A stretch of 21,455 nt of DNA from a virus, in IMG/VR virus record IMGVR_UViG_3300037993_000161, positions 1 through 21,455 of that record; one strand, 5' to 3'. The notes beneath the pieces were generated by a model that searched no databases, was not told where the DNA came from, and saw only the letters and a list, made by a program, of their open reading frames with translations. Shown here in pieces: positions 4,431 through 21,455 of this stretch (position 1 is the stretch's first letter; every line of letters starts with the position of its first letter). The position numbers and the translations under genes are program-made.

Positions 4431-4478
4431 GAGGGGCGGCTGTTACTGCGCTAACGCTGGCAGCCGCCCTCGCTTTTT
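4431..4478 (+). terminator. Rho-independent terminator directly before terL
   Basis: GGGCGGCTG (4434-4442) pairs perfectly with CAGCCGCCC (4461-4469), with an 18-nt loop, followed by TCGC and TTTTT (4474-4478). The terL ATG is 3 nt after the T-tract. A further weak stem (GCTGGG 4386-4391 with CCCAGC 4405-4410) lies upstream in the same 117-nt gap. Confidence 0.8.
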
Positions 4479-6112: not shown

Positions 6113-6535
6113 ATGGAACTAGGTAAGAAACACGAGTCGCTCGGCTCCCTGGCGACCCCGGAGAAATCCAACGAGAAGGAGCCAAAAGTCACTTATCCTG
6201 GCTTTTCCTTGAGGGATGAGCACGCCGCAAAGTTTTTGGACGAAACTGAGGCTAAGGTGGGCGAAGAGTTTGCTGCCACGGTTCGCATTTGTGTCACGGG
6301 CCTTACTGATGATAGTTTTGGAAAAAGTGTCCAGTTTGATGTGATCGAGCTTGACGACATCGCGCCAGAGCACGAAGAGGGCCGCGAGACCTACGGAGAA
6401 AGCTCCGGCAGTGGTTCCGGTTCTGGTGAGGGTGAGGAAGAGTCGGACGAGGAAGAGACCAAGGCCCTGGGCTATAAGCGGAAGAAATCCAAAAAGGAAG
6501 CTCCGCCGATTAGTGCCAAGGATTTGGCTGAATAA
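6113..6535 (+). CDS. Small phage protein: beta domain plus acidic and basic tail
   Basis: 140 residues. Residues 25-84 form a compact predicted domain (VTYPGFSLRDEHAAKFLDE, then ATVRICVTGLTDDSFGKSV, FDVIELDDI), which resembles small phage proteins with a 'YPGFSLRDEHA' opening that sit near head genes; their role is unknown. Residues 86-118 are highly acidic and Ser/Gly-rich (SSGSGSGSGEGEEESDEEE), followed by a basic patch YKRKKSKKEA (121-130). The charged tail could act in head assembly or DNA mimicry, but this is only inference. There is no Shine-Dalgarno site; the promoter puts the mRNA 5' end at the ATG. The stop is 2 nt before the tRNA. Confidence 0.8.
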   Translation: MELGKKHESLGSLATPEKSNEKEPKVTYPGFSLRDEHAAKFLDETEAKVGEEFAATVRICVTGLTDDSFGKSVQFDVIELDDIAPEHEEGRETYGESSGSGSGSGEGEEESDEEETKALGYKRKKSKKEAPPISAKDLAE

Positions 6536-6537
6536 TT

Positions 6538-6613
6538 TGCGGGGTGGAGCAGTGAGTAGCTCGTCACGCTCATAACGTGGAGGTCGCGGGTGCAAGTCCC
6601 GCCCCCGCTACCA
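6538..6613 (+). tRNA. tRNA-fMet-like (CAU anticodon), initiator type, encoded CCA
   Basis: A complete cloverleaf can be drawn: acceptor TGCGGGG (6538-6544) with CCCCGCT (6603-6609); D stem GAGC/GCTC (6547-6550, 6559-6562); anticodon stem TCACG/CGTGG with loop CTCATAA (6569-6575, anticodon CAT); T stem GCGGG/CCCGC with loop TGCAAGT (6591-6597); ACCA at 6610-6613. The acceptor, D-stem and variable loop AGGTC are nearly those of E. coli initiator tRNA. Initiator hallmarks present: unpaired 1-72 (U x U) and A11:U24. Departures: the three G-C pairs of the initiator anticodon stem are reduced to A-U, C-G, G-C; the D loop (AGTGAGTA) lacks the GG dinucleotide; T-loop position 55 is G. It may therefore be a decaying or altered tRNA. 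Confidence 0.85.
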
Positions 6614-6630
6614 GTTAAGGAGTAAAAGTT

Positions 6631-7017
6631 ATGTTGAATTATGTTGGCCCGAATATCGGCCCCGCGCCAGTGAGCGCCATGCTTCCCCCGGCCACGCCGG
6701 GGACTATCCCATCAGGAGTCCCAGGGGCCACACCGGCACCCGCGCCGCTGCCGAATACTCCGGTTATTCATGGCCCGGCTGCTCCGCCTCCGGCTGCGCT
6801 TGGTGCTATTCTGCGGCAGGCCGGAGGGCCTCCGGGGGCTGCTCCGCAAGCTCCGCCGCCTCAATATCAGGCCGTCACTCAGCTTGATGGGTCGATTCTT
6901 TTGCATATCAAATTGCCTGATGGGACACTTGGCCCAATCGTGAAAGTTCTTCCACCGCTGAAGCACCCACTGAATCCCCATCAGCCGCCCAATATCGCTC
7001 CCGGAGCGAAAGCTTAA
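6631..7017 (+). CDS. Proline-rich small structural-type protein
   Basis: 128 residues, about one quarter proline, mostly PA/AP/PP runs up to residue 82, so it is probably extended or disordered. The segment from about 83-110 (QYQAVTQLDGSILLHIKLPD, then GTLGPIVKVLPPL) looks like a short beta hairpin. AAGGAG at 6616-6621, 3-8 nt after the tRNA, is its ribosome binding site, so tRNA processing would leave this site at the new mRNA 5' end. The Pro-rich composition matches the C-terminus of the portal and the scaffold candidate. Function unknown. Confidence 0.75.
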   Translation: MLNYVGPNIGPAPVSAMLPPATPGTIPSGVPGATPAPAPLPNTPVIHGPAAPPPAALGAILRQAGGPPGAAPQAPPPQYQAVTQLDGSILLHIKLPDGTLGPIVKVLPPLKHPLNPHQPPNIAPGAKA

Positions 7018-7647
7018 ATGACTCTTCAAGAGTATCACGACCCAGTTGCCATTTCTGCAAGAAAGCGGGAAAGAAATCATTTACGTTACTTGAAAAACAA
7101 AGATAGAATTTCTGCGCAGAACCGAAGGTGGGAAAAGAAGAACCCTGAGCGATGCCGCGCAAAAAGAAAGCGGTTTTATCTTCGACATAGGGAAGCTATT
7201 CTTAAAAAAGCTAGGCAAGCGCGTCAGAACAGCCCAGAAGCATCAAGACTTGCATGTCGTAAATATGCAAAAAGCAGTAAAGGCATAGCGCAGCGGAAGA
7301 ATTACAAGAAGACCTTACTTTGTCAAATCGGCAATCGGCTGCGGAACCGAATTCGCTCTGCTTTACGCGAACGGGACGGTAGAAAAGCGTTTAAAACACA
7401 AGAGCTTATCGGGTGCTCAATTGATTTTCTTCGACAACATTTAGAGTCAAAATTCAGGCCAGGTATGTCATGGGCTATTCCAGGGTCTTTTCACATTGAC
7501 CATGTAAAGCCAATTAAAGAGTTCGACCTGACAGACCCAAAGCAACAGAAAGCCTGTTTTTCATACACCAATCTCCAGCCGCTTTGGGCAACGGAGAATT
7601 TGAAGAAAGGTGAACGTCTATGGACAGATTACTCGCCCGCAGGTTAG
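7018..7647 (+). CDS. HNH homing endonuclease
   Basis: 209 residues. The N-terminal ~100 residues are very basic and repeat an Arg/Lys-aromatic pattern (RYLKNKDR, NRRWEKKNPERCRAKRKR, RFYLRHREAI), likely for DNA contact. The C-terminal nuclease reads LIGCSIDFLRQHLESKF (130-146), GMSW (149-152), H159-I-D-H162, FDLTDPKQQKAC (169-180) and TNLQPLWATENLKKG (184-198), with N185 and N194; this is the classic phage HNH layout with all key residues. It starts directly after the preceding stop. Base composition is visibly more A-rich than its neighbours, consistent with horizontal entry. Its last 28 nt overlap a 27-codon ORF in another frame. It is the only mobile gene here and adjoins the interrupted portal region. 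Confidence 0.92.
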   Translation: MTLQEYHDPVAISARKRERNHLRYLKNKDRISAQNRRWEKKNPERCRAKRKRFYLRHREAILKKARQARQNSPEASRLACRKYAKSSKGIAQRKNYKKTLLCQIGNRLRNRIRSALRERDGRKAFKTQELIGCSIDFLRQHLESKFRPGMSWAIPGSFHIDHVKPIKEFDLTDPKQQKACFSYTNLQPLWATENLKKGERLWTDYSPAG

Positions 7648-7703
7648 ATACAGATAAAGATTTGAGAGCGCGGATGGTGAAGTTGGCCAAAGACTATCTG
7701 TAG
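7620..7703 (+). CDS. 27-codon ORF, candidate first segment of the portal gene
   Basis: Encodes 27 residues (MDRLLARRLDTDKD then LRARMVKLAKDYL), predicted amphipathic helix, ending at TAG 7701-7703. A good ribosome binding site (AAAGGTGA, 7605-7612) precedes its ATG, embedded in the end of the HNH gene. It is in the same reading frame as the portal ORF, which itself has no ribosome binding site or ATG at its beginning and whose frame stays open back to 7809. The N-terminal helix fits what portal proteins carry before their conserved clip/wing region. It could instead be a chance ORF or a tiny separate protein. Confidence 0.5.
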   Translation: MDRLLARRLDTDKDLRARMVKLAKDYL

Positions 7704-7838
7704 CCATGCCGGGAAATAGTTCGTAATTGAACACATTCCCGGTATGGCTACTTAAAGTCTAAGAATTGGTCGCGATGCCCTAGCGTATTGGTAGCGGGAG
7801 CCTGGTGACTTAACATCACTGGGCTTACCCGCTACCTA
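7691..7838 (+). other. Structured gap with in-frame stops between the 27-codon ORF and the portal ORF
   Basis: Contains two long stem-loops. Stem 1: 7700-7715 pairs with 7736-7751 (16 bp, one G-T), with an inner GTTC/GAAC stem (7719-7722, 7729-7732); flanking AGACT (7691-7695) can also pair with AGTCT (7756-7760). Stem 2: GGTAGCGGG (7790-7798) with CCCGCTACC (7828-7836), continuing into AGCCTGGTGA (7799-7808) with TCACTGGGCT (7816-7825), with a TA bulge and loop CTTAACA. Frame stops are TAG 7701, TGA 7728 and TGA 7806. There is no T-tract after either stem, so they are poor terminators. The rest of the 7648-7895 interval holds no other gene. Confidence 0.6.
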
Positions 7839-7895
7839 AAAATTTTCAGCAACGACTTTGATCTTTGCTACGATATTCTCTCGTGCTACTCCTCG

Positions 7896-10160
7896 TTGAG
7901 TAAAAAAGACACGGAGAATTTGGAGCGGGGGCACCCGAAGCGGTATATCCTTCCGATGACCGCGACTCAGATCACGACCATGACCACGTATATCGCCCAG
8001 GTGCTTTTTGGCCAGGAAACGCCGTGGAAGGTCGAGGGACGCCGCCCGGAGGATGACGTGCCTGCGGAGCTTGTCAATAATCTTTTGCGCTGGAATGCGG
8101 AGCAACAGCCGACTTATTTGCTGGGGTATCTTTGGGTGCAGGACGCGCTCGCCATCAATCGCGGGATTTTTTACAATTCATGGTCGCCGATCTTCCGACC
8201 GGAAATGGTGCCAATAATGGTTGAAGACCCGAATGATTTGGATGAAAGCGGCAAGCCCCGGACGTATATGCGCCCGACGCGGCGTAACAAAGTGATCGGC
8301 AATTTTGCCAAGATGGAAATTGTCAGTCCGTATGATTTCATTGCTGACCCTGCTCTTCCAATTCATCGTATTCAAGACATGCGATTTACTGGTCACAGGA
8401 CTATTATTTCTGTCACGGAGCTTCGCCGTCGAGCCAAGCTCCCGATTGACCACCCATCTTATGTTCTGCCGAGTGCTGTTGAAGATTTGGTTGCTAAAGC
8501 CAAAAAGGGAATTGCGCAGGCTGATGCGGCGGTTCCCTCGTTGCCCGGTGTTCTTCCGAATCCTACGGAAATCAGATTGAGCCGCACGGCTTACGAGCGC
8601 ACGCGCGCCTTGCAGCCAACCGGCAACATCCAGGCGGATAAGAATGACACGGGAAACGTCGAATGCTGGGAGCTATGGGTTCGTCTGGTTCCGTCTGAAA
8701 ATCGTATTTACAGCGATGAAACTCCGACTCCCCCGCTTTCCGGCGGTAAATCCAGTCCGACCGGCGCGCAGCTAAATAATGACGACGGCCAGGGATACCA
8801 AAATCCCGCTGCCGGTCTTGCCAGTGTGGCCCGGCCCGATCAGGGCTTTCCCAATATCGTGGAGTCCAATGTGGCCCGTCCTGGACGTGGCCCGATCAAC
8901 ACGACTCGCAATAGTTTGGAGCCGGGCATCGCGGGAGGCCCTCCCGGAACAAAAGCGCGCGACAATAATCCCGCCGCAAACCAGGATTTCACGCAGCCCG
9001 GTGCGACCGAAGACGAGCCGGTTATCTTCCAGATTCTCATTTCTGGCGGCGATGTCCTGCTCTCAATGAACGAATCCACTTACGAGCATGGGCTGTTTCC
9101 GTATTCAGTGGCCGAAGGACGACCCAATGCCCATTTCCAATTTTCAGTGAGTTGGATTCAGATGTTGAAGGGCATTCAGGATTACGTTGACTTTTTGAAA
9201 AATCGGCACCAGGAAGCGGTGAGCCGCACGCTTGGGAACATTTTCGTTTACGACCCGCGTTGTGTTGATGTGACCGATTTTATGAATCCCGACAAAGAGG
9301 GATTGCTGATTACGCTCAAGCCGGAAGCAGAAGGGAAAAAGCTCAGTGAGATTTTCCAGCAGATTCCGATTAAAGACTTGACAGAGAAATTTCTTGAGGA
9401 AGCAATGCAGTTCATCAAGTTTTCTCAGAGCGTCACCGCTGCCGATGAGGGAATGCAGGGTGTCATGCCGGGCGGCGAGCCTGCCAGCGCCACGCAGTTT
9501 GCCGGGACACAGCAAATGGGAGCGGGCCGGTTGACTTCTATTGCCCGCCTGATGTCGTCCCAGGCGCTCGTGCCGCAAACAAGAATGATTGTCAGCATGT
9601 TCCAGCAATTCATGGACGACGCTCAAATGATTCGGTTCAAGCCTTCCGATGTGACGAGCCTGCCGCCTGAGTTGAGGGACGCGGCTTCCGTGAGCCTGGA
9701 TAAAAACGCCATCGCGGGCGAGTATGATTTTCCGCCGCACGACGGCACACTGCCCGGCACGGATGGGCGCAAAGTCGCGGCGATCTCGAAACTGTTGGAA
9801 GCTGCCCAGGGATTCCCCGATGCGTTTTCGCCTCAGCCCGGCAATCTCAATCCAAAGAAACTCTTATTCCTTGGGGCTAAGGCTGCGGGTCTTCATGTCG
9901 AGAATTTTTTGTATGACAAGAATTCGTTGCCTCCTGCCGGGCCTCCTGGAATTCCTGGCGCTCCTGCTCTTCCTGGCGCTCCTGGTGTTCCTCCGGCTAA
10001 CGGCGCTCCCGCTGGTTTACCTCCTGTCGGCCCTCCTGGTGTTCCGGCTGGTATTCCGCAGAACCCAGGCCCGAAGCCAACATTGCCCGCGCTGGGGCCG
10101 TTGACCGCGCCGGTATTGACTCCGATCTCTCCGGGGCAGCCCAGACCGGGGAGCGTATAA
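7896..10160 (+). CDS. Portal protein (possibly N-terminally incomplete as annotated)
   Basis: 754 residues counted from the TTG at 7896, the first conventional start. It is the dodecameric portal expected directly after TerL in this gene order: conserved N-terminal region (KKDTENLERGHPKRYILPM, then a helical membrane-like stretch TTYIAQVLFG), then WVQDALAINRGIFYNSW and YDFIADPALP, a long helical centre (IQDYVDFLKNRHQEAVSRT), FVYDPRC, and SVTAADEGMQGVMPGGEPAS. Two unusual parts: a Gly/Pro/Asn-rich stretch of about 105 residues near 270-375, and a Pro/Gly-rich collagen-like C-terminus after about residue 675 (PGAPALPGAPGVPP). The start has no Shine-Dalgarno site, and upstream the frame is open to 7809, reading KIFSNDFDLCYDILSCYSSL, which looks like genuine portal sequence. 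The true N-terminus is therefore probably upstream. Confidence 0.82.
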   Translation: MSKKDTENLERGHPKRYILPMTATQITTMTTYIAQVLFGQETPWKVEGRRPEDDVPAELVNNLLRWNAEQQPTYLLGYLWVQDALAINRGIFYNSWSPIFRPEMVPIMVEDPNDLDESGKPRTYMRPTRRNKVIGNFAKMEIVSPYDFIADPALPIHRIQDMRFTGHRTIISVTELRRRAKLPIDHPSYVLPSAVEDLVAKAKKGIAQADAAVPSLPGVLPNPTEIRLSRTAYERTRALQPTGNIQADKNDTGNVECWELWVRLVPSENRIYSDETPTPPLSGGKSSPTGAQLNNDDGQGYQNPAAGLASVARPDQGFPNIVESNVARPGRGPINTTRNSLEPGIAGGPPGTKARDNNPAANQDFTQPGATEDEPVIFQILISGGDVLLSMNESTYEHGLFPYSVAEGRPNAHFQFSVSWIQMLKGIQDYVDFLKNRHQEAVSRTLGNIFVYDPRCVDVTDFMNPDKEGLLITLKPEAEGKKLSEIFQQIPIKDLTEKFLEEAMQFIKFSQSVTAADEGMQGVMPGGEPASATQFAGTQQMGAGRLTSIARLMSSQALVPQTRMIVSMFQQFMDDAQMIRFKPSDVTSLPPELRDAASVSLDKNAIAGEYDFPPHDGTLPGTDGRKVAAISKLLEAAQGFPDAFSPQPGNLNPKKLLFLGAKAAGLHVENFLYDKNSLPPAGPPGIPGAPALPGAPGVPPANGAPAGLPPVGPPGVPAGIPQNPGPKPTLPALGPLTAPVLTPISPGQPRPGSV

Positions 10161-10494: not shown

Positions 10495-11531
<1,037 letters not shown>

Positions 11532-13486: not shown

Positions 13487-13531
13487 AAAGTGCCAAAAGG
13501 GGTGTGTCCCTTTTTGGCACTTTTATTTTTT
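13487..13531 (+). terminator. Rho-independent terminator before the adaptor gene
   Basis: AAAGTGCCAAAA (13487-13498) plus the following G run pairs with 13508-13523 (about 15 bp with minor mismatch), short loop around GTGTG, then TTTTATTTTTT (13521-13531). The GTG of the next gene follows at once. Confidence 0.9.
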
Positions 13532-20944: not shown

Positions 20945-21455
20945 ATGGGCGAACCCACACCCCCATTCACGCTTCCCCCCACACCCTCAACAGGGGGGCA
21001 TAATCTAAAAGATTATCAGCAGGCCGTTGCAGTATGGACGCGCAAGTGCCAGCAGGCTGTGCAGCATGTTGCGGGGAGTGGAAGCGGAGGGACTGGGGCA
21101 ACTGGTGCTCCTGGTGCTCCTGGCGCTCCTGGCGCTCCTGGTGCTCCTGGGGCGACCGGGCCGACTGGTTACACGGGCGGTGCTGGGGCCGCTGGGGCGA
21201 CCGGGCCGACTGGTTACACGGGCGGTGCTGGGGCCGCTGGGGCCGCTGGGGCGACAGGGCCGACTGGTTACACGGGCGGCGCTGGGGCCGCTGGGGCGAC
21301 AGGGCCGACTGGTTACACGGGCGGCGCTGGGGCCGCTGGGGCGACCGGGCCGACTGGTTACACGGGCGGTGCTGGGGCCGCTGGGGCGACCGGGCCGACT
21401 GGTTACACGGGCGGTGCTGGGGCCGCTGGGGCCGCTGGGGCGACCGGGCCGACTG
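20945..21455 (+). CDS. Collagen-like tail fibre protein (3' partial)
   Basis: Open from ATG 20945 to the end of the window (170 codons). AAGG at 20937-20940 is a weak ribosome binding site. Residues 1-47 are the head ([14 protein letters not shown], then [20 protein letters not shown], an amphipathic helix likely for trimerisation or attachment). From residue 49 every third residue is Gly: [15 protein letters not shown], then repeats of [15 protein letters not shown]. Such Gly-X-Y tracts form collagen-like triple helices in phage fibres. Only the beginning is present, so the receptor-binding end is unknown. Confidence 0.85.
21149..21455 (+). repeat. Tandem 45/54-nt collagen-coding repeats
   Basis: About six and a half units starting GGGGCGAC, coding [15 protein letters not shown]; the second and sixth unit have an extra 9 nt (Gly-Ala-Ala). 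Near-perfect DNA identity with single-base variants (ACC/ACA, GGT/GGC). The array continues beyond the window. Confidence 0.95.

Follow-up and report, generated by a model that had tools for sequence, protein, structure and literature searches.

Where does the portal gene of a phage begin when its listed open reading frame (ORF) opens with a TTG codon that has no Shine-Dalgarno sequence, and a short ORF with a good ribosome binding site lies upstream in the same frame? The question is raised by a 21,455-base virus record (IMG/VR record IMGVR_UViG_3300037993_000161, hereafter the window, meaning the whole stretch of DNA analyzed; coordinates refer to its plus strand unless another contig is named). 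The listed ORF (7896-10160) matched the Pfam model SU10_portal (PF23899; 54.1 bits, above the curated cut-off of 30; E 1.2e-14) and the portal family PHROG 156, and terminase and capsid genes recognized nearby by Pfam and PHROG matches are consistent with this assignment. An earlier note on this DNA had described much of the anatomy correctly. The TTG at 7896 has no ribosome binding site and its frame is open upstream as far as 7809. The 27-codon ORF (7620-7703, translated as MDRLLARRLDTDKDLRARMVKLAKDYL followed by a stop) is preceded by a Shine-Dalgarno-like AAAGG (7606-7610) that ends 9 nt before the ATG. In between lie three in-frame stops (TAG at 7701, TGA at 7728, and TGA at 7806), the first of them at the base of a long hairpin. 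The note had proposed that a single gap of 138 nt, from CTG 7698 to CTA 7836, is skipped by translational bypass or by a novel RNA-processing element. This idea is right in kind and wrong in detail, as the sequence comparisons presented here indicate that the portal gene of this SU10-like phage begins at ATG 7620 and is broken near its 5' end twice, by hairpin-forming elements of 61 and 56 nt.

The evidence comes first from relatives. Fourteen loci were found when IMG/VR was scanned with the portal. A search with eight aligned portals added one more (L037), and one locus (L042) came from the GTDB genomes. With the window not counted, the portal N-terminus is unbroken in 13 of the 15 viral contigs (L003-L006, L008-L015, and L037), all of which encode the residues upstream of TTG 7896 in one open frame with no extra DNA; this comparison had been named in the earlier note as the test of its own idea, and its outcome favors that idea. 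These contigs do not represent 13 independent lineages, because L009-L013 have the same N-terminus, as do L004 and L005. In the portal alignment, residues 1-50 are well conserved among the relatives; for example, L008 reads MDRLVARRLDTDKDYRSRLVKLAKDYL-KIGRDALAYW-SSDFDLAYD, and the AYW in this stretch is invariant across the 13. The two interrupted contigs, L002 and L007, are both this phage itself. A motif scan with VKLAKDYL, which is independent of the portal searches, matched 23 stretches, 14 of which are portals; interruptions occur in the same two of these, and the other 12 have none. The corresponding scan with GRDALAYW matched 15 stretches, and the two from new contigs (L076 and L077) were unrelated. 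The L042 portal, on a contig of a metagenome-assembled genome (MAG) of Verrucomicrobiales, is also uninterrupted and has 39% identity. No other related portal turned up in the GTDB genomes, and this one gives a weak hint of Verrucomicrobiales as the host group.

Alignment to these relatives divides the interrupted gene into three coding pieces. Segment 1 (7620-7700; 27 codons, MDRLL...AKDYL) is homologous to the N-terminus of the 13 uninterrupted contigs. Segment 2 (7762-7791) consists of ten codons in the +1 frame encoding RIGRDALAYW, and segment 3 (7848-10160, through the stop codon) is the remainder of the SU10-type portal in frame 0. All ten positions of segment 2 fit residues found in the relatives, and the runner-up among the 10-residue stretches in the six frames of the window fits only six. 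Because these ten coding codons sit inside the gap from 7701 to 7847, the gap consists of two insertions; the single gap of 138 nt, which contains the ten conserved codons that the earlier note had missed, is therefore rejected. The insertion lengths of 61 and 56 nt are not divisible by three and their total of 117 nt (39 codons) is, such that deleting both leaves one frame of 807 codons from ATG 7620 with its sole stop at the end. What the aligned sequences show is the division into three coding pieces, the position and exact phase of both insertions, and the lack of these insertions in the relatives. An AlphaFold2 run on the portal alignment had a mean pLDDT of 31.9, and the model was not used.

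The borders of the two insertions could be placed closely. In the DNA alignment, one gap runs from CTG 7698-7700 to AGA 7762 and the other lies within TGG...AGC. Insertion 1 (7701-7761) is missing from the 12 aligned contigs and from L037, and its borders can slide by up to 4 nt leftward with the protein unchanged. For insertion 2 (7792-7847), L037 has the empty site TGGAGCAACGACTTT and reads TACTGGAGCAACGACTTTGAC, which fixes the border between TGG and AGC. A 15-nt direct repeat, ACGGAGAATTTG(A/G)AG, with 14 of 15 positions matching, was also observed at 7591-7605, in the end of the upstream gene, which encodes an HNH-type endonuclease, and at 7911-7925, in the portal gene past its interrupted part, with a spacing of 320 nt.

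Each insertion is largely a hairpin. The 16-bp and 19-bp stems of the earlier note were confirmed by folding: insertion 1 (61 nt) has a z score of -8.35 and insertion 2 (56 nt) one of -5.93, and none of 200 shuffles folded as well in either case; the region 7600-7900 as a whole has a z score of -6.31 (0 of 100 shuffles). In the predicted fold, hairpin 1 (7700-7751) has a 16-bp stem (7700-7715 paired with 7736-7751), a further 5-bp stem inside it, and a 5-bp helix outside it (7691-7695 with 7756-7760), and hairpin 2 (7790-7836) has 19 bp and a 2-nt bulge. In a scan for unbroken stems of at least 13 bp, which leaves out the bulged hairpin 2, hairpin 1 had the top score in the window (39.5), and stems in ten block-shuffled windows scored at most 33.0. 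The next stems in the window are a terminator-like one at 13487-13523 (37.5) and another at 4433-4470 (29.5). The former was considered as a further interruption and rejected: the region of its gene with homology to the relative G003 starts only past this stem, and the stem is followed by a T-rich run, so that it looks like a terminator. ARAGORN found no tRNA at hairpin 2, and the idea that this hairpin is tRNA-like was dropped.

The two insertions resemble each other at their ends. Each opens with TAGC, and in each case the TAG is in frame directly past a sense codon (CTG followed by TAG 7701; TGG followed by TAG 7792), so that both present a predicted stem-loop with a stop codon at the putative take-off site. 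By eye, both hairpins begin at the final base or bases of the preceding sense codon and end in GCTAC, both insertions have A-rich tails (CTTAAAGTCTA and CCTAAAAATTTTC), their common ends can be written TAGC...GCTAC-YTAAA, and both are placed after TATNNG and before AG. No stem sequence common to the two was seen by eye beyond the ends. With two copies, these similarities are suggestive only.

How widely the arrangement occurs was examined next to how well it is kept. L002 is a 45,849-bp contig of the same phage, and over the 10,262 bases compared, one substitution and one 45-nt repeat indel separate it from the window; the latter (10629-10674) lies within a repeat encoding PKTET units and is a difference in repeat number. 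L007, a 4352-bp contig with a different record number, has six substitutions relative to the window in 4352 positions. Three of these fall within the 117 inserted nt (binomial P 4e-4, for a region picked after the data were seen and with hairpins strong enough that they may also attract assembly errors). They are G7804A, which turns a G.U pair of stem 2 into A-U, one change in loop 2, and one in the unpaired tail of insertion 1, and none of them breaks a pair. The other three comprise two amino-acid changes and one silent change. The insertions are kept in both contigs. Beyond them, no further carriers of the insertions were found in IMG/VR, where exact matches to the core of hairpin 1 are confined to the two contigs of this phage. 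A blastn search of 7670-7860 against 50,697 phage records gave no match at E <=1. A plasmid search gave no match. Among the genes that the 45.8-kb contig has in common with G003, no other interrupted gene was seen (tblastn of G003 ORFs against G001), and the same holds for the translated neighbors of related HNH genes described below; thus, the arrangement is known from one phage lineage only.

Directly adjoining the interrupted portal gene, as had been noted before, is an intact gene for an HNH or endonuclease VII-like free-standing endonuclease (7018-7647), whose 3' end overlaps the portal start. Its product matched PHROG 1035 (endonuclease VII) at E 1.1e-6, and the top PHROG match is a family of unknown function. 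Pfam gave no match at E <=0.1, and NCBIfam gave chance matches only. The catalytic-type residues H-x-D-H, N, and N..K are invariant in an alignment with four relatives. In L008, no HNH gene lies upstream of the portal gene, and the upstream neighbor runs straight into it. Taken together, the locus shows a real and unusual feature, in which two small hairpin elements break up an essential phage gene next to a homing-type endonuclease gene.

How could such a gene be expressed? The best explanation, which is unproven and to which we give about an even chance, is that both insertions stay in the mRNA and ribosomes bypass both, as in gene 60 of phage T4. The ribosome would stop at the CUG codon with UAG in its A site, and hairpin 1 would help to loosen the peptidyl-tRNA-Leu, which would then re-pair at CUA (7759-7761), with reading resumed at AGA. 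This candidate landing codon lies 61 nt from the candidate take-off CTG (7698-7700), and both could be read by one tRNA-Leu. A second bypass across hairpin 2 would bring the ribosome to the main frame at AGC 7848, and the predicted product reads ...AKDYL-RIGRDALAYW-SNDFDLCYD.... Simple readthrough cannot account for this gene, since its pieces are in different frames and both insertions need to be skipped in full; the frame of segment 2 cannot be reached in that way, yet all ten of its residues match. A phage head needs only few portal subunits, and for this reason two bypasses of moderate efficiency would be tolerable. The neighboring HNH endonuclease would act as a homing partner, and the insertions would disrupt its target site within the portal gene, much as has been proposed for the T4 gap and mobA.

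Much of the anatomy of T4 gene 60, with which the earlier note had compared this locus, fits. In both systems, an essential phage gene is interrupted by a gap close to its 5' end, with different frames before and after this gap (PMC5009743, PMC3014915, PMC2988022), and a UAG lies directly past the take-off codon, within a take-off stem-loop (PMC5009743, PMC11194080). Both have a gap of roughly 50-60 nt, the lengths of 56 and 61 nt here being near the 50-nt gap of T4, and an HNH endonuclease gene upstream. In T4 this gene is mobA, and the gap may have protected against the nuclease (PMC5009743, PMC3014915, PMC2988022). The differences are that there are two tandem gaps here, in a virion portal gene that is not itself split by the HNH gene, with Leu or Trp codons instead of Gly, with longer hairpins, and with no 5' stem-loop or KKYK signal found.

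Several observations weigh against bypass. Sliding in T4 constructs is processive only to about 56 nt (PMC11194080); insertion 2 has 56 nt and insertion 1, with 61 nt, exceeds this limit. Insertion 2 offers no landing codon for tRNA-Trp, since a hop from TGG would end at the poorly matching TTC. The sole exact codon match at a distance of 56 nt is from CTA 7780 to CTA 7836 (one of the ten codons of segment 2, with about a 15% probability of such a match by chance), and this hop would swap the invariant AYW for KIF. Two features of T4 were not found: segment 1 (7620-7700) folds like its shuffles (z 0.08), so that no T4-like 5' stem-loop is seen, and no KKYK signal occurs in the 37 residues before take-off 2 or in the 27 before take-off 1. 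At take-off 1, a KKYK about 30 residues back is impossible, because the 27-residue chain cannot hold it. Nor is a dedicated nascent-peptide signal visible, as the same N-terminal residues occur in relatives that have no insertions. In L004, L005, and L006, the short space before the portal ATG encodes sequence resembling an HNH C-terminus (NLQPLWAKGNISKGAKW; LRPLWAEDNIRKADKW), with apparent remnants (PLWA...N..K) at L004:3688-3841 and L006:3790-3841 directly before the ATG, and the portals are uninterrupted. An HNH gene was probably once at this site in other lineages and then lost, judging from these remnants, and the HNH gene and the insertions hence appear not to be strictly linked. In IMG/VR, at least 600 stretches matched the HNH gene; among the best 80 loci, which were kept, nine of the 79 besides our own have a strong stem-loop within 500 nt downstream, and in the five of these nine that were translated no interrupted gene was seen by eye, a reading made without homologues. 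In six named phages with a related HNH gene, no unbroken stem of at least 13 bp had a score of 32 or more.

Imperfect matches between take-off and landing codons are known for the byp elements of mitochondria (PMC5009743), and minimal pairing can reportedly suffice in T4 constructs (a study cited in PMC3014915). The exact skipping of insertion 2 would yield the tryptic peptide DALAYWSNDFDLCYDILSCYSSLSK, and the hop from CTA to CTA would yield IFSNDFDLCYDILSCYSSLSK.

The main rival is that the insertions are not skipped at all. The 5' piece would then end at TAG 7701, a shortened portal would start inside segment 3, and the allele would be tolerated or partly defective. We consider this a serious possibility, although an unlikely one. 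It needs no unusual mechanism, and internal starts are available at TTG 7920 (61 residues lost), TTG 7896 (53 residues), and ATG 7956 (73 residues), the first of them with GGAG three bases upstream (GGAG-AAT-TTG, 7913-7922) as a possible weak start. Sequence similarity to gp5, a portal of solved structure (8zkk), is seen only from profile residue 51 onward, and the insertions may be too recent for the pieces to have decayed. However, the first 50 residues that would be lost are well conserved in relatives, all three pieces are intact, including the ten codons in an unreachable frame, the upstream ATG retains its good ribosome binding site, and the arrangement is kept in L002 and L007.

Alternatively, the hairpin elements may be removed from the RNA, as a new kind of very small intron, or skipped by RNA polymerase, such that a continuous mRNA is read. 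We judge this improbable, even though it would be simpler for insertion 2: the exact loss of 7792-7847 restores AYWSND, unlike a codon-matched hop, and two elements with common ends (TAGC...GCTAC-YTAAA, by eye) would suit removal. To our knowledge, no self-splicing intron is as small as 56-61 nt. No bulge-helix-bulge formed by pairing of the insertion borders is seen by eye in the hairpins, and an Rfam search of 6400-8600 at E <=5 gave six matches, none of them an intron, with all matches at the hairpins far below the gathering score. Phage group I introns with HNH endonucleases likewise combine an HNH neighbor, an interrupted essential gene, and a restored frame; in contrast, the two elements here are too short for them, as the earlier note had already argued for the gap, and their borders do not follow the U/G rule of such introns. 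In a comparable setting, the tape-measure gene of the mycobacteriophage Corndog, which adjoins an HNH gene, no splicing was found by reverse transcription PCR (RT-PCR) (PMC4351075).

Two other explanations can be dismissed briefly. One long bypass from CTG 7698 to CTA 7836 fits in frame and codons and gives an open product (DYL-KIFSNDFD), but it would lose the conserved and intact RIGRDALAYW and require a slide of 138 nt against the limit of about 56 nt described for T4 (PMC11194080), and is very improbable. Lowest of all, we rate the possibility that a leader peptide is encoded by the 27-codon ORF, with the hairpins as attenuators or terminators ahead of a normally starting portal gene; a short ORF followed by hairpins has this outline, but the leader and the codons between the hairpins are homologous to the portal N-terminus, so that segment 2 already contradicts it, no T-run follows directly after either hairpin, and a terminator scan (loop limit 3-8, unfit for hairpin 1 as a whole) lists neither. 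The remaining probability is shared by the single long hop, attenuation, and unknowns.

A broader idea is possible but rather doubtful. The two insertions may be copies of an unnamed class of tiny mobile hairpin elements of the form TAGC, stem-loop, GCTAC-YTAAA, inserted after TATNNG and before AG and spread by the neighboring HNH enzyme. Each copy would have its own skip signal, and could for this reason survive in essential phage genes; ribosomes would hop twice, or the RNA would be cut by a new hairpin-based mechanism.

Ribosomal bypass of both insertions, the explanation preferred here, can be compared with two further systems. The mitochondria of Magnusiomyces capitatus also have several short inserts in coding genes that need to be skipped, sometimes with an imperfect codon match (PMC5009743, PMC8211752); there are 81 such inserts in 12 mitochondrial genes, compared with two in one phage gene here. 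In the mycobacteriophages Corndog and Firecracker, the tape-measure gene, which is likewise a virion gene and has an unclear start, carries an HNH gene insertion at its 5' end, and bypass was one of two proposals (PMC4351075). Unlike the present case, no hairpin insertion was found at the junction in Firecracker, where homology to Dylan resumes about 10 nt past the HNH gene. For portal genes, we found no report of bypass in the open PMC literature.

Other features of this phage and its relatives were observed in passing. A tRNA-Met(CAT) gene lies between two head-cluster genes (6538-6613, ARAGORN). The longer contig of this phage has it too, and ARAGORN found no tRNA gene in the 14 relatives' loci scanned. 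By eye, position 1:72 (U.U) is unpaired and A11 pairs with U24, as in initiator tRNAs, but the three G-C pairs of the anticodon stem are missing. The window ends in the start of a long protein with collagen-like GXY repeats (20945-21455), probably a fiber. The longer contig of this phage also encodes a 2456-residue protein (L019:1974-9344, minus strand). In the terminase large subunit genes of two relatives (L004:778-2781 and L006:383-2887), an intein-like insert was seen by eye (CFSGDTLILTEFGEKPISEI...VYNLTV...EHEYFASGILVSN) that is absent from the terminase of the window, and in L006 an extra HNH-like ORF overlaps this insert.

Efficient bypass of long gaps in phages has one well-studied natural case, T4 gene 60; other than this, there are the byps in the mitochondria of a single group of yeasts and some candidates that are unproven (PMC5009743, PMC3014915). 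If both insertions in the portal gene are indeed bypassed, this would be a second phage case, with two tandem gaps, in a virion gene, with other codons, and again beside an HNH endonuclease. It would separate those features of T4 that are general (a stop after the take-off codon, a hairpin, and an HNH neighbor) from those that are not (the 5' stem-loop, KKYK, and Gly codons), and it would back the idea that bypass sites originate in homing cassettes, where they serve as protection. Should the RNA be processed instead, the two elements would be introns of about 60 nt, which is below the sizes generally known for self-splicing introns.

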